Shown one piece after another: positions 3,775 through 37,278 of a stretch of 64,000 nucleotides of DNA. Source of the stretch: an uncultured Ignavibacteria bacterium. GTDB lineage: Bacteria > Bacteroidota > Ignavibacteria > SZUA-365. The stretch spans positions 124,001-188,000 of the forward strand of contig CAJXVM010000008.1 of the NCBI GenBank assembly GCA_913061095.1, written 5' to 3'. How positions within the stretch are numbered: position 1 is the first letter of the stretch; every line of letters begins with the position of its first letter. The notes below the pieces were generated by a model, which ran no database searches, was not told where the DNA came from, and worked only from the letters and a program-made list of their open reading frames with translations. The translations under genes were made by a program, and so were the position numbers.

Positions 3775-6700
3775 TCACTCCCAGGCCCGGATTCTGCGCA
3801 GGTGCATGAGATGTCCGTGAAGCACGTCGGGAAAATTGTTCGTCGCATCGGGTGCACTGTCGAGCGGCCAGTGTGCGAGCAGCCCTTCTTCGGGAATCGA
3901 CCCGCGATACAGCGCCGCGATCTCCGCATCCTCCAGGCGCCGTTCCCATACACAGAAATCCGCCACGGCCCGTGCATTCGAGAGAAGACCGTATGAGCTG
4001 TCGAAATACTTGGTCCGCAGGTGGTTGTATCCATCATAAAAGAAACCCAGCTGCAATCCATAATAGCGGAAGAACGGCCCGCGGGCCAGTGTCTCCGACG
4101 TGATCGTCTTCACGAAGCTTCCGTTGAGGAAGTAGTCCAGCGTTCCGTCCCGGGCGACACGCAGTGCCACGTGATTCCATCCCTCACGGACGCGGACATC
4201 CCTGTATGGTCCTTCCCCCACGGCCACACCATCCGATAGCACCTGTATCCACGCATCCTGATTGGAGACGGCCATCATCACCCGTTCTTCCGGTCCGTCG
4301 TGACGGTACCACAGTGCGTAGCTGCGCGCGGAATCGGACTCCATGAGCTGCTGTGCGCAGTGCAGATAACAGAACGGAGCCAGTTCCGTCGCGGGACGGT
4401 CGAGCGGACCTTCGACGGAACGCACCGGCGGGGCTTCCGAGACCGTTACCGGTGCGGCCGATCGCACGGGAGCCGGTCTGCCATATGGCTCCGCTTCCTG
4501 GGCACTCTTGTATGCGACATTAATGCTTTCCTCGGTGACGTGATCCATGTCCCAGTATCCCCGCAAGCCGGGGGCGCGGGCGTCCACACGCTGCCGCATG
4601 GTTGCGCGGATCTCATCTGCCGAGCGATATCCACGCCAGAGACGGATTTCATCGACGGCGCCGCGGAAATGTCCTCCATGCTCGAATCCGTTGTGATAGG
4701 CGCCAACAGAGACATACGGCCGGAAAATGTTCTCCATGATGAATTCGTCCTCGCGGTCGAAGACCACCACACCGTTGCACAGGGCTGTCACACGTCCCGG
4801 TCCCTCCTCCCGCGGATGCCGGTACGTGAGAGCAAAATGCATCCATTCCCCGGCACGGACATTCGCTTCCTCGGGGATGCGTACGGAAACACCGATACTT
4901 GCGACGCCGATGTGAAGCGTATCATGGCTGAATGTGAAGGCCATATTCTCGATTGCCTGTCCGTCGGGCGGATTGTAGGTGTTGCTGTAGAAGCATCCCG
5001 CCAGTGTATCCGGACGCAGCCACATCTCGACGGTTGCGTCATCCATACCGAAGGCGTAGGACTTCTCACCGAAAACGAGCATGTCGTCCATTCCGTCGAG
5101 CTGCATTGCGTAGCCCGCGGGCTGTGGCGGACCGGCGCTTCCGTGGAGTGCAAGCACATAGCGCTCCTCACCGGAGCCGGCATCGCGCAGCACCAGCCGC
5201 GCGGTCTTCATTCGCCCCGGCCGCACGGGAGCGAACATGACCATCATGCGGAGTTTTTCCGTGGAAGCGATCTGCTGCTGCCCGCCGTTCCAGTTGCAGT
5301 ACCACTCTTCATCATCATCTGATTCCACGGTGATGTCGAGCTCGAGCGGGAAGCGGCCGAAATTGTAGATGTAGAAATTGCGGAAACAGCCGTCGCCAAT
5401 CTCCAGGTCACCGAATGGCACGATTGCGGATTTGTGTTCATCGCCGTCACGGAAAGTCCAGCTGACCTCATCTTTCGGATTGTAGACGATCGAACTGGCT
5501 TCCGGGATTTTCCCCTGCGCCTGTTCCAGATTCGGATAATCGTAGTAATACTTCCAGAGCAGAAAACCGGTATACCCGCCCAGGAGAAGCAGGATGAAGA
5601 TCAGCAGCGCAACGGCATGACGCCGGGAGAATTCGAAAACGCGGTCGGAGATCGCGCGGCGTTCATGGCGGATCACTCCGTCTGCATCAGCGCAGTCGCC
5701 GAGGGTCTCGATGCCATGTACATCGAGCTGCCGTGCGGGATAGCGCTGCTGCAAAGATCGCACGATACGCAGCGCCTCCTCCCTCTGGGCGGCAGCGATG
5801 ACCAGTCTGTCGACGGGAGAAAAAAACGCAACGGCAACCTTTCGCCGAAGCACGTCGGAGGGGAACTGCTGCACACTTCCGTCCGCGTTCAGTCCGCCGC
5901 TGCATGCCATGTGCGCCGCGAGATGCCAGCGTACCTCGCGATTGAAGCCGCGCTGCATATCGATGATCATCAGCAGGGCGGCGCCGAGACCCATGGAGGC
6001 ACCACGAAATTCGGCCCCACGGTCATGGAAGGAAAAATGGTACTCCCTCGGCGGCGGCGTGGAAAAGGAGCGGCGCACGAGGTCGGCTGCGAGACTGGCT
6101 CCGCGCTCGAGCTGCACCTGTGTCTCGGTATTATCCGGAGCAATCTCGCTTGTGAAATGGACATGCATTGCCGAACTCGGACGCGACCGCACATCGAGAC
6201 GCAGCACTGTCCCTGAATCCATGGCGGGATTATCAGACGCATCGAGCAGAACGACACCGACCCCGCCCTCTTCACGGGCATGCCGCCACTGCTGCAGCGC
6301 ACTGTCGATCGGGACGGGCACCGGGATCTCCGGAGGCACCGCGCGCCGCACGTATTGCACGAAGGCATCATGACCGAGCGTATCCGCATTCGAGATCGCG
6401 CTCCAGTCGGCCTCAGAAAGCTCGCGCAGCCGAAATCGCCGCATGCAGAGGTACCCGTGCAGCGCGCGAAACGCGCGCACACAGGCATGCGCGAATATCA
6501 TGCGACCGCAGGCAACGTCACGGATCCGGTCAAACTGTTCGCGGTGCGCGAACCAGCCGTATTCGCAGGCCGCATCGAGAAATCGCAAAATGATATTCCA
6601 CCGTTCAGGCTCGCCTCCGGAGATATAGACATGCTCTGCCAGCCGGGACACACGGCGGACCAGCACGGTGCCATACGAGGTCAGCCAGGGACGCGGCAGC

Positions 6701-6849
6701 GCCTCGGTGTGCGAGAGAAAATCCGTCAGCAGTGAGAAATTTCGTATCGGGGAGGCGGACTGCTCGAGATGCCGCTCCAGAGCGCGGAACGCCATGTCGA
6801 GTTCGATCGGAGTGCGTATGTAGGATTGCGGCCCTTCCCTCGAATCCAT
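3775..6849 (-). CDS. Single-pass membrane protein: Lon-type (S16) protease domain, ASH-like domain, two LamG-like domains
   Basis: 1,024 residues, third gene of an operon, nine bases after the zinc-motif gene; Shine-Dalgarno GAGGCG. Residues 1-190 are helical and unassigned. Residues about 195-395 align by eye with the Lon proteolytic domain: G-A-S-M-G-L-G holds Ser285 at the position of the catalytic Ser in Lon's GPSAG, S-G-G-L-N-A-D-G matches Lon's T-G-E-I-x-x-x-G, and V-L-R-R-K holds Lys337 at the dyad-Lys position of G-G-L-K-E-K. There is no AAA+ ATPase module. A transmembrane helix at about 411-432 is preceded by Arg-Arg and predicts N-inside topology. Residues about 470-572 resemble an ASH/HYDIN-type beta sandwich (P-F-G-D-L-E-I-G...N-F-G-R-F-P-L-E-L). 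About 580-770 and 835-1010 are concanavalin/LamG-like (M-Q-L-D-G-M-D-D; W-L-R-P; D-E-I-R-L-W). I infer a membrane receptor-protease; activity is unproven. Confidence 0.75.
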   Translation of the reverse strand: MDSREGPQSYIRTPIELDMAFRALERHLEQSASPIRNFSLLTDFLSHTEALPRPWLTSYGTVLVRRVSRLAEHVYISGGEPERWNIILRFLDAACEYGWFAHREQFDRIRDVACGRMIFAHACVRAFRALHGYLCMRRFRLRELSEADWSAISNADTLGHDAFVQYVRRAVPPEIPVPVPIDSALQQWRHAREEGGVGVVLLDASDNPAMDSGTVLRLDVRSRPSSAMHVHFTSEIAPDNTETQVQLERGASLAADLVRRSFSTPPPREYHFSFHDRGAEFRGASMGLGAALLMIIDMQRGFNREVRWHLAAHMACSGGLNADGSVQQFPSDVLRRKVAVAFFSPVDRLVIAAAQREEALRIVRSLQQRYPARQLDVHGIETLGDCADADGVIRHERRAISDRVFEFSRRHAVALLIFILLLLGGYTGFLLWKYYYDYPNLEQAQGKIPEASSIVYNPKDEVSWTFRDGDEHKSAIVPFGDLEIGDGCFRNFYIYNFGRFPLELDITVESDDDEEWYCNWNGGQQQIASTEKLRMMVMFAPVRPGRMKTARLVLRDAGSGEERYVLALHGSAGPPQPAGYAMQLDGMDDMLVFGEKSYAFGMDDATVEMWLRPDTLAGCFYSNTYNPPDGQAIENMAFTFSHDTLHIGVASIGVSVRIPEEANVRAGEWMHFALTYRHPREEGPGRVTALCNGVVVFDREDEFIMENIFRPYVSVGAYHNGFEHGGHFRGAVDEIRLWRGYRSADEIRATMRQRVDARAPGLRGYWDMDHVTEESINVAYKSAQEAEPYGRPAPVRSAAPVTVSEAPPVRSVEGPLDRPATELAPFCYLHCAQQLMESDSARSYALWYRHDGPEERVMMAVSNQDAWIQVLSDGVAVGEGPYRDVRVREGWNHVALRVARDGTLDYFLNGSFVKTITSETLARGPFFRYYGLQLGFFYDGYNHLRTKYFDSSYGLLSNARAVADFCVWERRLEDAEIAALYRGSIPEEGLLAHWPLDSAPDATNNFPDVLHGHLMHLRRIRAWE

Positions 6850-6858
6850 TGATACGCC

Positions 6859-7326
6859 TCAGCCCCGATCCTCGATATCCACCCGCATGGGTTCGATTTC
6901 AATTGAGGACGGTCCAATATCGAAGCGTCCCTGCGCATCCGGCGTGAAAACATCCTGCAGTCCGCTGAAACGGATGCGCAGGGCTGCGTAGCGCTCGGGA
7001 TCGCCGATGCAGAATCCGGTCAGCCGCTGTTTCTCCGTTTCCTCAATGACGCGAATAACCAGCGCACCGTCTTCGAGATACCAGGTCTGTCTCCAGCGCT
7101 GGTCTTCGTCCGTATCGGCTTCGGACTGCGCTGCAAGCCGGAACGACGAATCTCCAGGGTGTGTCCCGGCTCGCTGTTCCTGCGGAGCGCCGAGGAGCAT
7201 TTCCCGGAGAGCAACGTACTGTTCGCGGCAGAACGCGCATTCATACAGATGCGGATCGTCCTCTCCGCTCCGTGCAATCTGCACCAGGCGGAGTTCAGAC
7301 AGATGTGATATGTTCTGCTCGGTCAT
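6859..7326 (-). CDS. Small soluble protein with anti-sigma-type zinc motif (ZAS-like)
   Basis: 155 residues, 24 bases downstream of the sigma-like gene and nine bases upstream of the S16/LamG gene, so cotranscribed. The N-terminus carries His26-x3-Cys30-x2-Cys33 (H-L-Y-E-C-A-F-C), the exact spacing of the zinc-binding anti-sigma (ZAS) motif, within a helical segment typical of anti-sigma N-domains. Residues about 85-155 are predicted beta-rich and end in an acidic tail. No transmembrane segment or signal peptide is present, so it should be cytoplasmic. The inferred role is to bind and restrain the upstream sigma-like protein. An alternative is a zinc-finger adaptor with another partner. Confidence 0.55.
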   Translation of the reverse strand: MTEQNISHLSELRLVQIARSGEDDPHLYECAFCREQYVALREMLLGAPQEQRAGTHPGDSSFRLAAQSEADTDEDQRWRQTWYLEDGALVIRVIEETEKQRLTGFCIGDPERYAALRIRFSGLQDVFTPDAQGRFDIGPSSIEIEPMRVDIEDRG

Positions 7327-7350
7327 GCTCAGACCTTCTTCTCTGTACTA

Positions 7351-8355
7351 TTATTCGAGCCTCCGACGAACATTGGTGAAAACCGTGCGAACAATATATT
7401 CGTACGTATTACGATAGGATTTGCGATACCGCTGCTGTGTGAGACCGGGAAGAACCTGACGCAGATACGTAAAATGACCGAGGGCATCGTCACGCTTCAG
7501 ATCATCCACATACAGCTGGATCGCACGAAGCATGGCCTCAGCCTCCATGGTGCTGAGTTTGTGCCGCTGTACGTACTTCTCATCGACCCAGTTTCGCGCT
7601 TCGGCAAGCGCCGCGTTCAGTGCCCGGTCTGCCATGATGGAATCATCCACGTCTTCCGCCGTCATGGCAGCGTCGCTTTCAACGAGGTGTCGCGACTGCA
7701 GCATGCCATGGGTCCAGTCAAGGATGTCGTGTTCATACACCGCCTGGCGCACACCGGGGATACGCGCCACGGCATCGAGGGCGGCGTGCAGCACACTGCG
7801 CACGGGATGCCCGTCAAGCGTTGTCGCGGCGAGCGCGGAGCGCAGCGTGTCGGCGGGGACGGCAGGCAGATGGAGCTGCGGATCACGATCGGCGGCGGCA
7901 TACCAGTAACCGCTGACGCTGTCAATTCGCACGACAGCCGGAGAAGCCACGGTATACCGTCTCAGCGCGCGGAGCAGGCGCGACTGCAGCGGATTGATAT
8001 CCATGAAAAAACGGGCGAGGTTCAGGCGTGCGGTACGGTTGACGACGGCAACAAATGCACTGTCCGCATCGAACGCCTCCCCCTCCTCATCCCGAATTCC
8101 GCGAAGTGCGCTTTTGAGCCTGCCGAGCACTTCACCGTCAAGTTCCGATACCAGTTCGGCGACCAGATCGTATGCCAGGTCGTCGATGGAAAGCCCTGTC
8201 GGACCGAGATGGTACCCGCGCTGCCAGATCAGCCATTGAATATAGCGACGCGCGCACTCGACGGTGCGGTCGACGATATGATCGACACGGTGAGCGTTGA
8301 GCTCGTCATTGAGCAGACGCGCGATCAGGTCCGATGTTGCGGGCGGTGCGTGCAT
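7351..8355 (-). CDS. Large sigma-70-like regulator (tentative), first gene of S16/LamG operon
   Basis: 334 residues, mostly helical and soluble. Residues about 50-75 (L-S-I-D-D-L-A-Y-D-L-V-A-E-L-V) resemble the D-L-x-Q-E-x-F helix of sigma region 2. A later helix (A-V-V-N-R-T-A-R-L-N-L-A-R-F) could match the region 2 DNA-contact helix. The basic C-terminal segment (L-T-Q-Q-R-Y-R-K-S-Y-R) could be a helix-turn-helix. At 334 residues it is much longer than ECF sigma factors (about 180-200), and region 4 is not clear. The sigma call leans on the next gene, which has an anti-sigma type zinc motif. It may instead be an uncharacterised DNA-binding regulator. A promoter-like sequence lies just upstream of the start. 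Confidence 0.4.
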   Translation of the reverse strand: MHAPPATSDLIARLLNDELNAHRVDHIVDRTVECARRYIQWLIWQRGYHLGPTGLSIDDLAYDLVAELVSELDGEVLGRLKSALRGIRDEEGEAFDADSAFVAVVNRTARLNLARFFMDINPLQSRLLRALRRYTVASPAVVRIDSVSGYWYAAADRDPQLHLPAVPADTLRSALAATTLDGHPVRSVLHAALDAVARIPGVRQAVYEHDILDWTHGMLQSRHLVESDAAMTAEDVDDSIMADRALNAALAEARNWVDEKYVQRHKLSTMEAEAMLRAIQLYVDDLKRDDALGHFTYLRQVLPGLTQQRYRKSYRNTYEYIVRTVFTNVRRRLE

Positions 8356-8373
8356 AATTCAGATCAACGCTGA

Positions 8374-8403
8374 AATATACTTCCACGCACAATAACATAT
8401 CAA
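8374..8403 (-). promoter_or_regulatory. Candidate promoter for the sigma-like operon
   Basis: On the (-) strand a -35-like TTGATA (8403-8398) and a -10-like TATATT (8379-8374) are separated by 18 bases. This puts the start site about 12 bases before the ATG at 8355, a short leader with no obvious Shine-Dalgarno. The match is to the general sigma-70 consensus. Many Bacteroidota use a different -10/-33 pattern, so this is tentative. Confidence 0.35.
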
Positions 8404-8827
8404 ACGACATTCATGAGTTCGGAAATATCCCGTTCCCCGGAAACGCGGATGCGAAAAACCGCCGGAAATATCATCCGCCGCCGGTCTGCAGCTCCGTGTG
8501 GTGTGGTGGGTGTGGATTCCCCGGTGGTGAACACCGGCTCATCCGGTTGTGACCGACAGCATCCGTTTTTTCCAGCGGCTTTCCGCTGTTGCACACCCTC
8601 CGTCCCACCCGATGCAGCGCCCTTACAGGCAACAGATCCCTCGCCGCCCTTTCTTCTCCTTCCACTCTTCATGCATTGCAGCGCTTCCTGAATGCGCAGC
8701 GCTTACTGTATCCATTGCCCGACTGGCGCGGCACGTCCGCATGGCGTGGCACCTCCGCATGGCGCGGTGTGGCCGGGCGGCGCAGCGTGTCATGGCACCG
8801 CTGCGCGGGCGACCACAGGACAGTGCC
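8404..8827. other. Intergenic region, no gene seen
   Basis: Between the sigma-like operon start and the end of the small secreted protein gene. Open frames on both strands here are Arg/Pro/Ser-rich, lack ribosome binding sites and resemble no family. It includes two copies of an 18-bp repeat (8727-8744 and 8745-8762, consensus CGYGGCACSTCCGCATGG). Nothing else was recognised. Confidence 0.6.
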
Positions 8828-14783: not shown

Positions 14784-17700
14784 TTATTTCACCAGCATCA
14801 TCTTCCGGAGCTGGTGGAAGATCTGTCCGCTGTCTCCGGTCGCGATGATGCGATAGAGATAGATACCGGACGGAAGATCGCGGGCAGCATTGCCGCTGTC
14901 GAATGTGACGGCGTGCGTGCCTGCAGGGACCTCCTCGTTCACCAGGACGGCGACTTCCTCACCCATGGAGTTGTGTACTGTCAGGTGGACAGTGCTGCGC
15001 TCTGGCAGGGTGTAGGTGATCGTCGTCACCGGATTGAACGGATTCGGATGGTTCTGATCCAATGCAAAGCCGGTCGGCGTCAGATCGAGACGGACATCCT
15101 TCGGCGGCGGCATCGCGTAGAATCCGGCAAGGAAGCGCGCTTCGTCGAAGCCCTTGTTGATGGCGTCGAGAGCGGCCACGATGTCGGACAGCGACACACC
15201 GGTGAAGGACGTGCCGGCAAGAGCCTGGTTGGCCATGTCGAGAAGATCCTGCGGCGTCACATTCATTCCGTTCGAGCCGAGCTCGCTGAGCACGTTGGGC
15301 GGGAAGAAGAAGAACTGGTACGTCGTATCCGGCATGTCGTCCGCGTCGCCGCAGATGCCGTTGCCGTATATCGATGCCGCAGTGCGCATCCAGGGCGTCG
15401 TCGGAGGCGGCAGGTACATCTTCGTCAGGTTCGAATCCAGGCGCATGTTGAGTGCGAAGGTGATCGTCTGCGACAGGAGGATGTTCCGGAATCTGCCTCT
15501 CTTCAGCGGGAGATTGCCCGGGGTGATGTTGCAGTTGTTGTTGTAGCTGTAGTCGTGGGTGAGCGCCTTTGCAGGACCACCACCCGGAAGGTTGCCGATG
15601 AGACAGGACGCATCGCCGTGGAGGATTTCGAAGGAGCCGGAGCCCTTCACTCCGACGATGAGTGTGTCACCGGAGAGCAGCAGCGAGTCGATCAGCGTCT
15701 GCGTTCCCTGTCCGGTTCCGCAGTACTTGCCGCCGCTGTTACCGTAGAAGCCCTGCGTCAGGGTCTCGAACTGGTTGCACAGTTCGACAATGGTCTGACT
15801 GACAACGACGGATGCGTTGCCGCAGGTGTCGACCGCCTGCCAGCTTCGCGTGTGATAGTAGATACCCGCGACGTACGTCGTCGTGTCAGACACGATGACC
15901 AGTGCGGGATCGTTGTCACAGTTGTCGCTGTACGTCGGGTCGGTGAAGACGATGGCCTCGCGGCATGCCACCGTGTCCTGCGGAGCCGCCGTGATCGTCG
16001 GGGCTTCGTCGTCGACGACGGTGATGGTCTGGCTGACAGTGGTGGATTCGTTGCCGCATCCGTCCACGGCCTTCCAGGTGCGCGTGACGCTGTAGTTCTG
16101 CGGGCAGCTGCCCGGCGTCGTCACGTCGCTGCCGACCTGCATGACCGTCGGGGTACCGCAGTTGTCCGTCGCCGTCGGCGTACCGAACACCGGTGTGGAA
16201 GCACAGTCGATGGTCGTATCGGCCGGGACAAAGGTGAACGTCGGCGGTGTGCCGTCGATGGTCGTGTTGTAGGTCACGGTTGTGTCATTGCCACAGTCGT
16301 CGGTCGCGGTCACGGTGATGACGGCGTTGCAGTCACCGACCGTGGAAGCGGAGAGCGTCACACCGCTGCAGACATCGCTGGATGTCGTGGCGGCGATGGC
16401 GGCTGCTTCGGCTGCCGCTTCCGTCGGATAACAGCTGCTGATGCTGCCGGCCGAAATCGAAGGCGGTGTGGTGTCTTCAATGGTGAAGGTGGCGGTCGTG
16501 GAGTCCACGTTGCCGCAGTCGTCGGTGGCGTAGAACGTCACCGTCGCACTGCCCGTGGCACCACAGTCGTCACTGAGTCCGGTGAAGTTGTTCGTCCACT
16601 GGAAGTTCGAGCAGACATCGCTGGCCACGGCACCGCCGTTGGAGGCGAGCCATGCGTTCAGCGCTGCCGTGTTGCCCGCACCGTCGCACTCGACCGTCTG
16701 ATCACTGGCCGCGGTCGTGATGTCCGGCGGCGTGGTGTCTTCGATCTCGAAGCGCGCGGTGGTGGAATCGACATTGCCGCAGTCGTCGGTGGCATAGAAT
16801 GTTACATCGACGTAGCCGCTGCCGCCGCAGCCCGGCACGAAGTTATTCGCGTCGCAATTGTTGCTCCACGAGAAATTGGAGCAGACATCGCTTGCGACAG
16901 CCCCGCCGTTGTTGGCGAGCCAGCTGTTCAGGTCGGTGAGATTTCCGTTGCCGTCGCACTCGACCGTCGTGTCAGCGGCTGCCGTCGTGATATCCGGCGG
17001 CGTCGTGTCCACGATGGTGAAGCGGGCGGTAGTGGAATCCACGTTGCTGCAGGCGTCGGTGGCGTAGAAGATCACGTCCACGTAGCCGGTTCCGCCGCAC
17101 AGCGGGACGAAATTGTTGGCGTCGTAGTTGTTGCTCCACGTGATCGCCGAGCAGATGTCGGTTGCCGTCGCACCGCCATTGTTGGCGAGCCAGCTGTTCA
17201 GATCCGTGGTGTTGCCGTTTCCGTCGCACTCGACCGTCGTGTCGGAAGCCGCGACGACTGTCGGAGGCGTCGTATCGACGATGGTGAAGCGTGCGGTGGT
17301 GGAATCGACGTTGTTGCAGTCGTCGGTGGCGTAGAAGGTCACGTCCACGTAGCCGGCGCCGCCACAGGTCGGGACGAAGTTCGCTGCGTCGTAGTTGTTG
17401 CTCCAGCTGAAGTTGGAACAGACATCGCTGGCGATCGCGCCGCCCTGGTTGCTGAGCCAGTTATTGAGGTCCGTGAGATTGCCGTTGCCGTCACACTCGA
17501 CCGTGGTGTCGGCCGCTGCCGTCGTGATATCCGGCGGCGTCGTGTCCTCGATCGTGAAGCGTGCGCTGGTGGAATCAACGTTGTTGCAGTCGTCGGTGGC
17601 GTAGAATGTCACGTCAACGTAACCGGCATTGCCGCAGGTCGACACGAAGTTCGCCGCGTCGTAATTGTTGCTCCAGCTGAAATCGGAGCAGACATCGCTG

Positions 17701-20700
17701 GCAACCGCACCACCCTGGTTGTTGAGCCAGTTGTTGAGATCCGTAAGGTTGCCGTTGCCGTCGCACTCAACCGTCGTGTCGGCTGCTGCCGTCGTGATAT
17801 CCGGCGGCGTCGTATCCTCGATCGTGAAGCGTGCGGTAGTGGAGTCGACGTTATTGCAGGCGTCCGTGGCGTAGAAGGTCACGTCCACATATCCGGCATT
17901 TCCGCAGGTCGGCACGAAGTTCGCCGCGATGTAGTTGTTCGACCACGAGAAGTCCGAACACACATCGGTGGCAACTGCGCCGGCCTGATGGGCAAGCCAG
18001 TTGTTGAGGTCCGTCAGGTTGCCATTGCCGTCACACTCGACCGTGGTATCTGCGGCTGCCGTCGTGATGGACGGGGGCGTGGTATCCTCGATCGTGAAGC
18101 GTGCGGTGGTGGAGTCGACGTTGTTGCAATCATCGGTGGCGTAGAACGTCACGTCCACGTATCCGGCACCGCCACAGGTCGATACGAAGTTCGCCGCGTC
18201 GTAGTTGTTGCTCCAGCTGAAGTTGGAACAGACATCGCTGGCGACCGCACCGCCCTGGTTGTTGAGCCAGTTGTTGAGGTCCGTGATGTTGCCGTTGCCG
18301 TCGCATTCGACGGTGGTGTCAGCCGCTGCGGTGGTTATGGACGGAGGCGTCGTGTCTTCGATCGTGAATCGTGCGGTCGTGGAATCCACATTGTTGCACT
18401 CATCGGTCGCGTAGAAGGTCACGTCGACGTATCCGGCACCGCCGCAGGTCGGCATGAAGTTGTTGGCGTCGTAATTGTTCGTCCAGGTCACGCCCGAGCA
18501 GGCGTCGCTGGCCGTGGCGCCGCCGTGATTGGCGAGCCAGTTGTTGAGATCGGTCGTGTTTCCGTTTCCGTCACACTCGACGGTGGTGTCAGACGCGGCG
18601 ACAATGGTCGGCGGCGTGGTGTCCACGATCGTGAACGTCGCGGAAGTAGAGTCCACATTGCCGCACTCATCGGTCGCGTAGAACGTGACCGTGGCGCTGC
18701 CGGTGGCACCGCACAGGTCGGAAAGACCCGTGAAGTCGTTGCTCCAGCTCACCGAACCGCACTGGTCGGACGCCATCGCGCCACCGTTGCTGTTCAGCCA
18801 GTCATTGAGCGCCGTGGTATTGCCGTTGCCGTCGCACTCCACGGTGGAATCGGACGCGGCGACCGAGATGGTCGGCGGCGTCGTGTCCACGATCGTGAAT
18901 GTCGCGGATGTGGAATCCACGTTGCCGCAGTCATCGGTGGCATAGAAGGTCACCATCGCACTGCCGGTGGCGCCGCAGAGATCGGAAAGCACCGTGAAAT
19001 TGTTGCTCCACGTGACCGATCCGCAGGCGTCCGTTGCCGTTGCGCCGCCGTTGGCGTTGAGCCAGGCATTCAGCGCCGTGGTATTGCCGTTGCCGTCACA
19101 CTCGACCGTCGAGTCGGACGCTGCGGTCACGACCGGTGGTGTGGTGTCGACGACGAAAATCGTCTGCGAGCAGGTGTCGGCGTTGTTGTAAATGTCCGTT
19201 GCGACCCACGTGCGCGTGACACTGTACTCGTTGGCGCAGCTGCCGGGTGTCGTGTTGGTGCTCAGAATGGTGACGACCGGGTTCTGATCGCAGTTGTCCA
19301 CTGCCGTGGGCGTGGTGAACGGCAGCGTTCCGGGTGCCGGACATTCGATCGTCGTATCCGCGCTGCAGGTGATCACCGGCGGCTCAATGTCGCGCACGTT
19401 CACCGTCAGCGAGCAGGTGCTCTGGCAGAAGGGGAAGGTGGTTTCGGTGATCGTCAGCGTCAGCGTGAAGGTCCCGACGTTATTGCCGGCATCGACGCTG
19501 ACGGACTGTCCGTTAGTCGCACCGTTGATGCTGCCGTTGCCGCTGATGCTCCACGCGTACGTGAAAGCACCGTTCGGCGCGTTAAAGATGTTGCCCGTGG
19601 ATCCCGGGCAGACATCGCCGACCGGTGTGATCGAACAGGTCGGAAGCGCCTTGACGGTCACAGTCTGCGAGACGGTCTCGCTGCAACCGTAGGTGTCCGT
19701 GACGGTCAGGGTAAGCGTGTAGCTGCCGTTTGTCCCGGCGTCAACGGTAACGGTGTCGGTGTTCGTTGCGGAGGTGATGGTGCCGTTGCCCGAAATGGAC
19801 CAGCTCCATGTGACGATGGAATCGATGGGCAACGGCGAATTCGCATCGAACATCGCATAGTAGATGTTGCCCACGGAGTTCTCACAGACAAGAATATCAC
19901 CTTCGATATCGAAATCAGGCACCGGGAACACGTTCACCGTGCCCGAGCATCCGGATGATGTGAGTCCGTTCGCATCCGTCAGCGTCACCGTATAGGTGCC
20001 CGCGGCGGAAGCGGGAACGACGATGCTCTGCGTGGTCGCACTGAAATTGTTCGGTCCCGACCAGAGATAGGTGTACGGCGGAGTGCCCTGCGCGATGCGC
20101 TGGGCCGTCAACGTCACCTGCGACTCGTCGCAGATCGTCGTGTCGGCGGGATACACGGCACAGACCGGCGCCGGAATGTGATTGCCAAAATTGATATTCG
20201 CGACCGTTGTCGCATTCAATAGATCGACTTCCCAGGAAAACGGGCCATATCCCCCAAGCACGGCAGGTGCCGGGGTATTCACACCGTCGATATCCGTACC
20301 GGTGGAATTCGCGTCCGGATAGGTCTGCACCCATTCCGAGGGCGGGATCTGCGCGAATGCCGGTGCGGCGTTCGTATACCCCGAGGCGTTTCCGGTCGTG
20401 GGGGCGCTGCCGAGTTCCTCGCTCACGAGATAGATCGACTGCGGCAGTCCGGTCAGACTCCAGCTTCCGGTATTATCAGTATATGCCGTATCCGAAATCG
20501 GTACGCCGCCAATGATGGTTCCAATATAGATCGGCCAGCCATCCAGCGATGACTCTCCGCCGTCCTGCGTCTGGTTTCCGTTGATATCGTGGAATTTCAG
20601 ACCGGAAAGCTGTCCCGCCGGCTGCGGCGGCACAGGGATGGGCACGGTCTTGTTTCCGAGTGTCAGGTAGGTCTGTCCGGATGATCCGGAGACGAAACCG

Positions 20701-31548: not shown

Positions 31549-34500
31549 TTACTTGAGCAGCAGCATCAGCCGCTCCTTGACGAACTCGCGGTTGCTGACG
31601 CGCGAGGTGGCATGGATTCGGTAGATGTAGCTGCCGGAAGCGACCTTGCTTCCATGTGTGTTCGCAGTGGCATTCCACACGGCACTGTGCATGCCGGCCG
31701 GAACCTCCGTGTCGACGAGCGTCGTGATGGTCTTTCCGAGCGTGTTGATAATGCTCAGGCGGACATGGCTCGCCTCCGGCACGAAGTACTGGATGGTCGT
31801 GGTCGGATTGAACGGGTTGGGGTAGTTTTCATAGAGTGCGTATTCAGATCCCGTCACCGAGGGTTCACCGCCCTGCTCCGCAGAACCCTTCGAGAAGATG
31901 TTCAGCGTGCAGAAGGCCTCGCAGGCGGCGTTGTTCGGATCGTTGGGATCCCAGTTCGCATCGCGCACCTGCAGCGTAATGGTGCCGTTGTAATTGCACG
32001 GGATGTCGAACATCGGTCCCATGTGCTGTGACGGCATCCAGAGGTACGAGTATGGCGGGGTGCCGCCACTCACCGTCGCCGACACCGTGCGGATACCGTT
32101 GATGCATGGCGATACGTTGCACACCACGTTGAGCGGTGGTGGTTCGGGAACGTGGATGGTCACCGTATCCGTGCAGTTGTTCGCATCGGTCACGATGAAC
32201 GTGTACGTACCCGCCTTGTAGGTGAACGTTCCGACACCGCTGTACGGGGGCGTGCCGCCCCACGCCGACACGGTAATGTCGGAGAACCCTCCATGACAGA
32301 GAACTGGCGTCGCGGCTGCGGTCGCATAGACCGGCGGCGGAGAGGCGATCGTTGCCTGGACGGTATCCGCGCATCCGTTGGCATCGGTCACGATAAACGT
32401 ATACGTGCCGGCCAGACGCTTGAAATCGCCCGTGCCCGAATACGGCGTCGTACCACCGATCGCCGTGATTCTGATGACCGCGCTGTCGCGTCCGCAGCTG
32501 ACGGACGGCGCATTCGCGTTCGCCTTCAGCTCGGGCGGTTCGGTAATTGTGATCGTCGTGCTGGCGTTGCAGCCCCTGGAGTCAGTGACAACATAGGTGT
32601 GTGTGCCCGCCAGTGCGGTGAACGTCCCGGTACCGGTGTACGGCGGTGTACCACCCGTTGCCGTGACCGTAACGGTGGAGAGATCTCCGTGACAGAGAAT
32701 CGGCGTCGCGATGGCCGCAACGAAGAGCGGCGGCGGATCGTCGAGTGTGATCGATACCGAGTCCTTGCAGCCGTTGCCGTCCGTGACGACGAAGGTATGC
32801 GTGCCCGGACCACGGGTGAAGCTTCCGACACCGTTGTAGGGCGGCGTGCCGCCGGACGCGGTGACGGTGATCGTTGTGGTTCCGCCATTACATGCGATGG
32901 GTGCAGCGGTAATCGATGCCACGAGATCGGGCGGCTCGGTGATCGTCACCTCGACCGTATCGGTGCAATTGTTCGCATCGGACACGACAAAGGTGTACGT
33001 ACCAGCGCCCTTGTAGAAGATGCCGACACCGGAATACGGCGGCGTACCGCCCCAGCCGCTGACTGTGATCGTGGAAAGATCACCATGGCAAAGAATGGGA
33101 GTGGCGTTTGCTGCCGCGTAAATTGGCGGCGGTCCCGTGACCGTCACCTGCACCGAGTCCTTGCAGCCGTTCGCATCCTCGACGGTAAACGAATGCGTGC
33201 CCAGGGTACGGCGGAAGGTACCGGTACCGGTGTACGGAGAGGTACCGCCGGAGGCCGAGACCGTAACCGTCGCGGTGTCCCGACCGCAGGTCAGCGTTGT
33301 TGCATTGGCCGTCAGTGTCAGGAGTGGCGGTTCCGTGATGGTGATGCTCACCGACTCCGAGCAGCCGTTGGCGTCCGTGACGGTAAAGGTGTACGAACCG
33401 GCAGGTTTCAGGAATACGCCATCCCCGGCGTACGGCGGAGTGCCGCCCGAGGCCGTGATGGTCACCGTGGAGCTGCCGCCGTTGCAGAGAATCGGCGTCG
33501 CCGTGATACCGACGATCAGCGTCGGCGGCTCGGTGACCGTCACTTTGACCGTATCAGTACAGCCGTTGTCATCCGTGACCATGTAGGTGTAGGTACCTGC
33601 GCCGACCTGGAACGTCCCGGTTCCGGTGTATGGCAGTGTGCCGCCGATGGCCGATACGGTGATCGTTGTGGTTCCGCCATTACAGGGAATTGGCGGGACG
33701 TTTGCAGATGCCACAAGTTTCGGCGGTTCCGTGATCGTCACCGACGCTATGGCCGTGCAGTTGTTGGCATCGGTGACCACGAAATTATAGGTACCCGGAC
33801 CGCGCGTATAGGTCGTCACACCCGTATACGGTGGTGTTCCGCCGGTGGCGGTCACGGTCACCGTGGAGCTGCCGCCGTTGCAGAGAATCGGCGTCGCGCT
33901 TGCACTTGCGGTCAGCGCCTGCGACGGCTGTGTCAGCGTGACGCTTGTCGAAGCCTGACAGCCGTTCGCATCCGTCACCGTGAATGTGTGCGTACCGGCT
34001 GTTTTCGAGAACGTGCCCGTGCCCGTATACGGCGGGGTGCCACCGGTGGCGGTCACGGTGACGGTTCCCGTACCGCCGTAGCAGTCGATCTGGGACGAAA
34101 CCGCCGCACTGATACTGACGGCGGATGACGGCTCGGTCAGCGTCACTGTCGTGGTTGTCGTGCAGTTGTTGGCGTCCGTGACCGTAAACGTGTAGGTTCC
34201 GGCACTCTTCGTAAACGTGCCCGTTCCGCTGTACGGCGGCGTGCCGCCGGAAGCGGTCACGGTCACCGTGCCGGTGCCGCCATAACACATGATCGGCGAT
34301 GTCACCGTGGCGGAAGCGGTCAGCGCGTTCGCCGGCTGCGTGATCGTCAATGTGGTCGACTCCATGCAGCCATTGGCGTCGGTGACCGTGAAAGTGTACG
34401 TACCGGCGCTCTTCGTGAATGTTCCCGTTCCCGCGTAGGGTGGTGTGCCGCCGGTGGCGGAGACGGTAACCGTCGCTGTGCCGCCGTAGCAGTCGATCGC

Positions 34501-37278
34501 AGTGGTGACCGCGGCACTGACGCTCAGCGGATTGGCCGGCTGCGTCAGGGTCACACTCGCAGAAGCCGCACAGCCGTTGGCATCTGTAACCGTAAACGTG
34601 TGCGTGCCGGCCGCCATCGAAAATGTTCCCGTGCCGGTGTACGGGGGCGTGCCGCCGGTCGCGGTGACATCCACCGTGCCGGTGCCGCCGTAGCAGTCGA
34701 TCTGGGAGGTCACGGCAGCGTTGACGGTGACCGCACTCGCGGGCTGCGTCAGTGTCGCACTCGCCGTGGCCGTGCAGTTGTTGGCATCGGTGACCGTGAA
34801 GGTGTATGTTCCGGCGGATTTGTTGAACGTGCCGGTCCCCGTATACGGCGGCGTGCCGCCGGAAGCGGAGACCTGCACCGTGCCGGTGCCTCCATAGCAA
34901 TCGATCTGAGATGTCACGGCAGCCGTGGCCGCCAGCGCCTGCGACGGCTGTGTGATCGTCAGCGTCGTCGATTCCGTACAGTTGTTCGCATCGGTGACAG
35001 TGAACGTATGCGTGCCGGCTGCCACTGAGAATGTGCCCGTACCGCTGTACGGCGGTGTGCCGCCTGTCGCGGTGACGTCCACTGTCGCGGTACCGCCGTA
35101 GCAGTCGATCGCTGAGGTGACCGCCGCACTGATGCTCAGGGCGGATGCAGGCTGCGACAGCGTCACGGTCGTGGATGCCGCACAGCCGTTGGCATCGGTC
35201 ACGGTAATCGTATGCGTGCCGCCGGACAGCTGCTGCGTTCCGGTGCCCGTGTACGGCGGCGTCCCGCCGGAAGCCGTGACGGTCACCGTACCGGTGCCGC
35301 CATAACAGTCGATCTGGGATGTGACCGCGGCGCTGACGGTGACCGCGCTTGCGGGCTGTGTCAGTGTCGCACTCGCCGTGGCCGTGCAGTTGTTCGCGTC
35401 GGTAACAGTGAAGGTGTACGTCCCGGCGGCTTTGATGAATGTTCCGGTACCGGAATACGGCGGTGTTCCTCCTGTCGCCGTCACCTCTACCGTGCCGTTG
35501 CCGCCGTAGCAATCGATCGCGGATGTCACGGCAGCGGAAGCCGACAGCGACTGCGATGGTTGCGTGATGGTCAGCGTCGTCGATTCGGCACAGTTGTTCG
35601 CATCGGTGACGGTGAACGTGTGCGTTCCGGCCGCCTTCGAGAACGTCCCGGTGCCGGTGTACGGCGGCGTGCCGCCGGAAGCCGCCACATCAACGGTCGC
35701 GCTGCCGCCGTAGCAGTCAATCGTGGAAGTGATCGCCGCACTGATGCTCAGGGCGGATGCAGGCTGTGTCAGCGTCACGCTTGTCGTCGCCGCGCAGTTG
35801 TTTGCGTCGTACACAGTAAAGGTATGTGTCCCGGCGGACTTGGTGAACGTCCCGGTGCCGGTGTATGGCGGAGTGCCCCCGGTCGCCGTCACCTCGACGG
35901 TGCCGGTGCCTCCGTAGCAATCGATTTCGGATGTGACGAAGGCATTGGCGACACAGGCGGAGGCAGGTTCCGCCAGCGTGATGCTCGCCGTGTTGGCACA
36001 GCCGTTTGCGTCCGTGACGGTAAAAGTGTGTGTCCCGGCCTTTTTATGGAACGTGCCGGTCCCGTTGTACGGCGCTGTACCGCCGGATGCTGTGACCGTG
36101 ACCGGTGCTGTTCCTCCGACACAGGCGATCTGGCCTTTTGCCGAGGCCATCACACCGAATCCGAGTACCTTCACTTGCATCGGACAGATGACTGTCTGCA
36201 GTCCATCACGCACGATCAGCGAAAGCGTGAACGATCCCGCATGCGGTCCTGCATCGACGAGAACAGACTCTCCGGTTGTCGATCCCAGAATCGTGGCACC
36301 GCTTGTATTGTCCGCCAGTGACCAGGAGTACGTGTAATTGCTGGCCGCGCCGCCGAAGGTGTACGTATGCTGTGTGCGCATACATACCAGGTCGGGACCC
36401 GAGGTGCCGCAGATGATGCTCGTCATCACCGCGGCGCTTTTGATCTGATTGTCCTGGCTCCCGAGCGGACTGCCGTCGAGTTTCTCCAAGGTGACATGAT
36501 ACGAACCGCCGCTGATGCTGCCGGCGCCGTATCCGCCACCATAGCCGATTCCGCCACCCGCACCGGTGACATCACTGCCCATCGCGAGATGGGTGGCGAA
36601 TTCGACAATGACATTTTTCGACTCCGACGTCCATGTCAGCGTATACAGCGCCATGGCGTCCCGTCCCGGTGTGTATCCGTCGAAACGCAGTTCGGCATCC
36701 GTGATCGGCTCCTCGCCGTAGATCTGAACCGTGCGGTCTCCGAAGCGTTTTTCGTACTGCTGCACGCTGCTTTCGATACTGTGCGTCAGCAGTGTGCTCA
36801 TCTTCGTCGGCGCGCGCACCGGGAGCGAGTACCCGTTGGTGCGCAGGTCTTTGGCCATGCTCTGCATGGACTTGGGCGGACCGATGTCATCGCCCCATGG
36901 ATTCATTTCAGACATGACACTCGGACCCACGATTGCGGTTGCCGCCTTCTCTGCCTGACTCCAGGAAGTCAGATAGTCATAGGCGTGTTTGCCGTTTTTC
37001 GTGGCCCTGTGACTGAACGTCAGTTTATGAACGTTCCCCTGCGTGGCGGGAACGTTCATCAGAACGATACGCTGGGGCACGGACATGCCTTCATAATAGA
37101 CAGCGTTATTCTGATGAAGAATTGATTGGACCCAATGTACTTCTCCCGTGCTGTAGGGACTGTCGTTATTCGCTGCCTGACGGAAATCAATCCGCATCGG
37201 CTGCGACAGAGCAGTCACCGAGCAGCATAACATGAGCAGAAGCAATATAGGCGCAGAAACCGTGGGCAAGCGTTTCAT
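31549..37278 (-). CDS. Giant SprB-repeat adhesin with T9SS sorting domain
   Basis: 1,909 residues from ATG 37278 (upstream GGAAAGGTG; signal peptide ending V-T-A-L-S-Q). Residues about 30-370 are a unique N-terminal domain with a Ser/Gly-rich turn near 36480-36560. About 375-1725 are twenty full SprB repeats plus one partial, each about 66-68 residues with G-G-T-P-P-Y-x-G-x-G-x-F and V-T-D-A-N-[NG]-C. About 1815-1909 are the T9SS domain (N-Y-P-N-P-F-N-P; ends L-M-L-L-L-K). SprB in Flavobacterium is the T9SS-exported gliding adhesin. This protein is much smaller and need not imply motility, but a surface adhesin role is likely. One Cys pair per repeat could give a disulphide ladder. Confidence 0.9.
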   Translation of the reverse strand: MKRLPTVSAPILLLLMLCCSVTALSQPMRIDFRQAANNDSPYSTGEVHWVQSILHQNNAVYYEGMSVPQRIVLMNVPATQGNVHKLTFSHRATKNGKHAYDYLTSWSQAEKAATAIVGPSVMSEMNPWGDDIGPPKSMQSMAKDLRTNGYSLPVRAPTKMSTLLTHSIESSVQQYEKRFGDRTVQIYGEEPITDAELRFDGYTPGRDAMALYTLTWTSESKNVIVEFATHLAMGSDVTGAGGGIGYGGGYGAGSISGGSYHVTLEKLDGSPLGSQDNQIKSAAVMTSIICGTSGPDLVCMRTQHTYTFGGAASNYTYSWSLADNTSGATILGSTTGESVLVDAGPHAGSFTLSLIVRDGLQTVICPMQVKVLGFGVMASAKGQIACVGGTAPVTVTASGGTAPYNGTGTFHKKAGTHTFTVTDANGCANTASITLAEPASACVANAFVTSEIDCYGGTGTVEVTATGGTPPYTGTGTFTKSAGTHTFTVYDANNCAATTSVTLTQPASALSISAAITSTIDCYGGSATVDVAASGGTPPYTGTGTFSKAAGTHTFTVTDANNCAESTTLTITQPSQSLSASAAVTSAIDCYGGNGTVEVTATGGTPPYSGTGTFIKAAGTYTFTVTDANNCTATASATLTQPASAVTVSAAVTSQIDCYGGTGTVTVTASGGTPPYTGTGTQQLSGGTHTITVTDANGCAASTTVTLSQPASALSISAAVTSAIDCYGGTATVDVTATGGTPPYSGTGTFSVAAGTHTFTVTDANNCTESTTLTITQPSQALAATAAVTSQIDCYGGTGTVQVSASGGTPPYTGTGTFNKSAGTYTFTVTDANNCTATASATLTQPASAVTVNAAVTSQIDCYGGTGTVDVTATGGTPPYTGTGTFSMAAGTHTFTVTDANGCAASASVTLTQPANPLSVSAAVTTAIDCYGGTATVTVSATGGTPPYAGTGTFTKSAGTYTFTVTDANGCMESTTLTITQPANALTASATVTSPIMCYGGTGTVTVTASGGTPPYSGTGTFTKSAGTYTFTVTDANNCTTTTTVTLTEPSSAVSISAAVSSQIDCYGGTGTVTVTATGGTPPYTGTGTFSKTAGTHTFTVTDANGCQASTSVTLTQPSQALTASASATPILCNGGSSTVTVTATGGTPPYTGVTTYTRGPGTYNFVVTDANNCTAIASVTITEPPKLVASANVPPIPCNGGTTTITVSAIGGTLPYTGTGTFQVGAGTYTYMVTDDNGCTDTVKVTVTEPPTLIVGITATPILCNGGSSTVTITASGGTPPYAGDGVFLKPAGSYTFTVTDANGCSESVSITITEPPLLTLTANATTLTCGRDTATVTVSASGGTSPYTGTGTFRRTLGTHSFTVEDANGCKDSVQVTVTGPPPIYAAANATPILCHGDLSTITVSGWGGTPPYSGVGIFYKGAGTYTFVVSDANNCTDTVEVTITEPPDLVASITAAPIACNGGTTTITVTASGGTPPYNGVGSFTRGPGTHTFVVTDGNGCKDSVSITLDDPPPLFVAAIATPILCHGDLSTVTVTATGGTPPYTGTGTFTALAGTHTYVVTDSRGCNASTTITITEPPELKANANAPSVSCGRDSAVIRITAIGGTTPYSGTGDFKRLAGTYTFIVTDANGCADTVQATIASPPPVYATAAATPVLCHGGFSDITVSAWGGTPPYSGVGTFTYKAGTYTFIVTDANNCTDTVTIHVPEPPPLNVVCNVSPCINGIRTVSATVSGGTPPYSYLWMPSQHMGPMFDIPCNYNGTITLQVRDANWDPNDPNNAACEAFCTLNIFSKGSAEQGGEPSVTGSEYALYENYPNPFNPTTTIQYFVPEASHVRLSIINTLGKTITTLVDTEVPAGMHSAVWNATANTHGSKVASGSYIYRIHATSRVSNREFVKERLMLLLK
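32105..36160 (-). repeat. About 20 SprB-coding tandem repeats of roughly 200 bp
   Basis: In-frame repeats inside the adhesin. The N-terminal half (repeats 2-11, high coordinates) is more uniform: all but repeat 10 have I-D-C-Y-G-G. The C-terminal half is more varied: C-N-G-G, C-H-G-D, C-G-R-D. The pattern suggests recent expansion or homogenisation of the N-terminal block only. Confidence 0.9.

Follow-up and report, generated by a model that had tools for sequence, protein, structure and literature searches.

A candidate transmembrane signalling cassette in Ignavibacteria that links a receptor-borne Lon-type protease to a zinc anti-sigma-like protein and a presumed regulator

A three-gene group, or trio, is found in a 64,000-nucleotide stretch of DNA (the window) from an uncultured Ignavibacteria bacterium of the SZUA-365 lineage (assembly GCA_913061095.1, contig CAJXVM010000008.1, positions 124,001 to 188,000). 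We propose, with a probability of roughly 0.6, that the trio is a transmembrane signalling cassette, in which outside sensing leads to inside cleavage of a zinc protein by a Lon-type protease and a regulator is thereby freed. The trio consists of open reading frames on the (-) strand at positions 7351–8355 (334 amino acids; the presumed regulator), 6859–7326 (155 amino acids; a soluble zinc anti-sigma-like protein) and 3775–6849 (1024 amino acids; a membrane receptor with a cytoplasmic Lon-type protease domain). Gaps of 24 and 9 bases separate them, exactly as described in an earlier note on this DNA, which was made by a model from the sequence alone.

In the proposed cascade, the LamG and ASH domains of the 1024-residue protein would sense something beyond the cytoplasmic membrane, and binding would shift the oligomeric state or the conformation of the receptor. 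The cytoplasmic, ATPase-free Ser/Lys protease would thereby be switched on and would cut the neighbouring zinc anti-sigma-like protein; the freed 334-residue regulator would then alter transcription. What has been computed is the Lon fold with its catalytic dyad, the topology, the conserved linkage of the genes and a swap of the outside domain with membrane zinc anti-sigma factors; we infer that a ligand is sensed, that the protease is activated, which protein is its substrate and that the regulator has sigma activity.

The Lon-type domain is not detected by Pfam in the window copy alone, which the Pfam Lon_C model misses as well. Relatives of the receptor, 79 in number, were gathered from 61 near genomes and 395 genomes of the phylum. 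The family profile, searched against the PDB, matches archaeal LonB proteolytic domains (P-domains) first, with E=1.9e-9, followed by LonA and mitochondrial Lon. The Lon (S16) proteolytic domain covers residues ~196–397 (5659–6264, (-) strand), and Ser285 (TCC, 5995–5997) and Lys337 (AAG, 5839–5841) stand opposite the catalytic pair of Lon proteases, including that of 1z0c. Both residues belong to the only three that are invariant in an alignment of 32 sequences, the third being Gly324. An AlphaFold2 model of residues 1–440 has a mean predicted local distance difference test score (pLDDT) of 86.7 on a 12-row alignment; it should be pointed out that the structure models rest on shallow alignments, of 7 and 12 rows. 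When the predicted fold is submitted to Foldseek, the best 50 PDB chains are all Lon, with E from 1.2e-8 and target template-modelling scores to isolated Lon P-domains of up to 0.77. The 1024-residue protein thus has a true Lon (S16) fold with a Ser/Lys dyad, as the earlier note had read it, and is a putative protease. It has no AAA match in Pfam and, instead of an AAA+ ATPase domain, the model shows an all-helical N-terminal domain at residues ~1–193 (6271–6849, (-) strand; pLDDT mostly 80–95). The weak tail of the phylum search (E 1e-4 to 1e-7, frames mostly ~800–870 amino acids) reads as ordinary Lon proteases and provides an internal control.

Of the 79 copies, 78 retain Ser and 78 retain Lys, despite identities to the window copy of only 18 to 62%. 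The sole exception, at 6519–8756 of locus L146, lacks both residues and adjoins an intact tandem copy that bears a DUF5122 propeller outside.

A hydrophobic helix is present at or just past the end of the Lon domain in all 74 long copies. Lysine plus arginine residues around this helix average 4.5 before and 1.2 after it, and the N side is the richer in 70 of the 74, with four ties and no reversed case. This excess places the Lon domain inside and 314–602 residues outside. In the window copy, the single transmembrane helix claimed in the earlier note lies at residues ~413–437 (5539–5613, (-) strand), has the Lon side inside, and corresponds to a model helix at 412–437.

Outside the membrane, LamG domain 1 (residues 602–747; 4609–5046, (-) strand; Laminin_G_3, E=3.8e-13) provides the sole significant Pfam match in the trio; the 334- and 155-residue proteins have none, and an NCBIfam scan of the three proteins gave no usable match. 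An ASH-like domain had also been proposed, and this assignment holds at the family level, with Cep192_D4 found in 10 and ASH in one of 12 family members; its approximate limits are residues ~450–575 (5125–5502, (-) strand). Of the two LamG-like domains in the earlier note, the first stands. The second is a possible domain at approximately residues 825–1000 (3850–4377, (-) strand), a sub-threshold Laminin_G_3 stretch that is not retained at E<=0.05 in the window copy. The outside parts differ within the family: LamG/ASH domains characterize the window's group, FG-GAP-like repeats are found in most of the other copies scanned, and the DUF5122 propeller occurs in one.

The trio recurs. Among 61 well-flanked receptor copies, defined as those with at least 2.5 kb on each side, a 334-residue-type gene is found within 6 kb in 45, a 155-residue-type gene in 42 and both in 41, nearly always on the strand of the receptor. 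At the genome level, a strong receptor occurs in 38 of the 395 phylum genomes and the 334-residue family in 53, among which are 38 of 38 receptor genomes (hypergeometric 4e-41, uncorrected for kinship); the co-occurrence spans 12 families. Named neighbour genomes are metagenome-assembled Bacteroidetes/Ignavibacteria, including SZUA-365, and the window genome itself has a second trio on a different contig (L041). Plasmid records yielded LamG matches only, and neither the Lon part nor the regulator was found in them. In some loci two to four tandem receptors lie beside one or two regulator pairs; four receptors at L115 and three at L120 share one or two regulator/anti-sigma pairs, which suggests that several sensors feed one regulator. 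The earlier note had proposed a structure prediction of residues 195–395 against the Lon P-domain and a survey of gene neighbourhoods, and had named a fold unlike S16, loss of the dyad and lack of co-occurrence as results that would tell against it. The region is S16-like, the dyad is kept at 78 of 79, and the neighbourhood and genome counts stand at 41 of 61 and 38 of 38.

The 155-residue protein contains a zinc anti-sigma (ZAS) module and a C-terminal domain. The H-x3-C-x2-C motif that the earlier note singled out is present as H26, C30 and C33 (7228–7251, (-) strand), and the best match of the family profile in the PDB is the anti-sigma factor RsiW (E=0.0047), with 3hug chain B at E=0.49. 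In addition, zf-HC2 is found in two relatives. Across the family, 29 of 51 members carry the motif; motif-less second-gene proteins, which include those of L113, L119, L120, L122, L124, L125, L131, L132 and L136, retain the C-terminal domain.

Indirect evidence on the target of the receptor comes from fifteen genomes in which the 334-residue regulator is found without a Lon receptor. In 15 of 20 extra regulator loci fetched, the next gene encodes a protein of 440–490 amino acids with H-x3-C-x2-C near residue 30 (at 61 in one copy, whose start is longer), a single membrane helix near 103–139 and ~340 residues outside. By these sequence features, they are built like classical membrane zinc anti-sigma factors (ZAS-TM), and the RsrA model matches one of them at 7.5e-4. 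A hidden Markov model built from 18 ZAS-TM ectodomains aligns over nearly its full length with 53 of the 74 Lon receptors (best 8e-58), those unmatched being essentially the LamG group. The shared ectodomain indicates one sensor family fused to either the ZAS module or Lon; in the Lon fusions, the ZAS module is encoded on its own as a soluble protein. In both architectures, the 334-residue family is followed by a ZAS protein. In our judgement, nothing else argues as strongly as this domain swap for an action of the receptor on the anti-sigma step. It offers support for the receptor-to-anti-sigma link that is independent, and because of it the best mechanism appears to be one in which the receptor cleaves the small zinc protein. 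The earlier note's idea of a receptor that acts through proteolysis on an anti-sigma protein therefore gains in its central link, from recurrence, dyad and swap together; its sigma identity is unsupported, and the proteolysis we infer.

Conversely, the receptor might cut the 334-residue regulator itself, as an off-switch or a maturation step, with the zinc protein as a presenting adaptor. Of the two partners, the regulator is the more constant, being present in every receptor genome, whereas the zinc motif is gone in 22 of 51 second proteins. However, receptor-free loci fuse the sensor to the ZAS module and not to the regulator, which makes the ZAS step the one that immediately follows the sensor, and in the published Calp precedent it is the anti-sigma factor that is cut. 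We regard cleavage of the regulator as improbable.

That precedent is CalpL, a Lon-SAVED protein of type III CRISPR systems, which is activated by oligomerisation and cleaves the anti-sigma factor CalpT, freeing the extracytoplasmic function (ECF) sigma factor CalpS (PMC11417357, PMC12751052). The earlier note's statement that no receptor-linked Lon system had been described was therefore too strong as a claim of novelty, although the CalpL sensor is an inside one. Both systems have three genes, for a signal-activated Lon protease, an anti-sigma-type protein and a regulator, and some receptor Lon domains match CARF_LON or SAVED_LON_TM profiles. In contrast to CalpL, the sensor here is outside the membrane (LamG, FG-GAP-like or DUF5122) and is not a cyclic tetra-adenylate (cA4)-binding SAVED domain; the regulator cannot be recognised as an ECF sigma factor, as CalpS can, and the brake, unlike CalpT, is of the ZAS type. 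Pfam and PADLOC find no SAVED or CARF domain in the window receptor, which is thus not a CalpL member. A kinship of the receptor Lon with CRISPR-linked Lon is plausible from the profile matches.

These similarities raise the question of whether the trio is a defence or conflict device, its Lon domain being a toxic or alarm protease like those of CRISPR-linked CARF-Lon and SAVED-Lon. Among 32 Lon-like members, PADLOC gives CARF_LON in eight (best 6.6e-6), CRISPR-Lon in two and SAVED_LON_TM in two. Yet the lack of a CARF or SAVED domain, the position of the sensor outside the membrane, an architecture of signalling with anti-sigma pairs and the tandem receptor copies of several loci all point away from defence, which we consider very unlikely. 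Equally hard to credit is a non-proteolytic, structural Lon-like domain that just holds or releases the zinc protein, for although there is no AAA+ unfoldase, the domain is far from housekeeping Lon and one L146 copy has lost both catalytic residues, the dyad has otherwise been retained across the divergence described above.

Several results nonetheless weigh against the proposed cascade. One or both partners are absent from the vicinity of 20 of the 61 well-flanked receptors, and the H-x3-C-x2-C motif is missing in the 22 second proteins already mentioned. The distance matrices of the three genes correlate at 0.80–0.84 (36 trios), which may reflect vertical descent alone. Above all, the description of the 334-residue protein as sigma-like in the earlier note is not upheld. 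Pfam finds no sigma family among 33 members, a PDB profile search of the family gives no sigma match, and a PF04542 search of the window genome does not list the protein. Comparisons by hhalign were made with sets of 17 and 39 ECF sigma factors, and the family fits the 39 no better than it does a reversed control; the top segment corresponds to region 2.1–2.2, but the reversed control scores higher. The structural model is moderate (pLDDT 78.6, predicted template-modelling score 0.49), and its best PDB fold matches, at E 0.13–0.9, are insignificant; Thermus thermophilus sigma-A recurs among such insignificant matches at E 0.8–2.5. A viral fold search with the model yielded nothing significant.

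Neither Pfam nor NCBIfam detects the 334-residue family, and its identity as a regulator is based on its constant pairing with anti-sigma-type proteins. Within the proposed cascade, we presume that the protein is, most probably, a sigma factor that has diverged very far. A further-reaching suggestion, which we hold only tentatively and think doubtful, is that the family is a new class of transcription-initiation regulators beyond recognisable sigma-70, held by zinc anti-sigma factors and released through transmembrane receptor-proteases that are themselves a new class, present in at least 12 families of Bacteroidota/Ignavibacteria. At one locus (L135, 7886–8881) the regulator gene is present as two open reading frames (146 and 183 amino acids) with an in-frame TGA, a possible pseudogene or assembly error. 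At L074, L077 and L079, the place of the anti-sigma factor after the regulator relative is taken by a multi-pass membrane protein, and at L074 also by an NTPase_1-type protein.

In regulated intramembrane proteolysis of the RseP/DegS type, an outside signal likewise ends in destruction of an anti-sigma factor; in the trio, a single protein is both receptor and protease, and cleavage would be cytoplasmic. With ZAS-TM anti-sigma factors such as RsiW the trio shares the ZAS motif, an outside sensor, the sigma/anti-sigma gene order and the same outside-domain family beside the 334-residue regulator family, but in the trio the ZAS module and the sensor are on different proteins, the first soluble and the second joined to the protease. 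With Lon/S16 proteases (archaeal LonB, LonA and stand-alone P-domains) it shares the P-domain fold and Ser/Lys dyad, whereas in the receptor there is no AAA+ ATPase, and the P-domain is flanked by an N-terminal helical domain and by one membrane helix that leads to large outside domains. No paper on a receptor-linked Lon with an anti-sigma factor was found in the open-access literature. We consider the trio a widespread and new variant, in which the Calp logic is built around a membrane receptor.

A promoter-like site of the sigma-70 type, TTGATA-18-TATATT (8374–8403, (-) strand), lies immediately upstream of the trio, as a pattern only, with 10 of 12 matches; such sites are no more numerous than in shuffled sequences. 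A shared promoter motif sought upstream of 78 regulator genes gave nothing convincing, and GTATATT, which precedes some genes in the window's group, resembles a standard -10 element. Elsewhere in the window, a 14-base repeat (TGCGCTTTGCACTC), in about 15 copies, forms an array between two genes at 626–827. Long tandem arrays at 16462–18683 and 33827–35925, with units of ~264–270 and 204 bases, are probably repeat domains of large surface proteins.

The trio suggests a new route from outside signals to gene expression, in which the cleavage step would be carried out by the receptor. If the proposal is correct, bacteria have a one-protein receptor-protease for outside signals, and the CRISPR Calp cascade would be one case of a broader Lon/anti-sigma/regulator design. 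Exchange of a sensor between anti-sigma factor and protease offers a testable account of how such cascades originated, and the 334-residue family may be an overlooked group of sigma-like factors.

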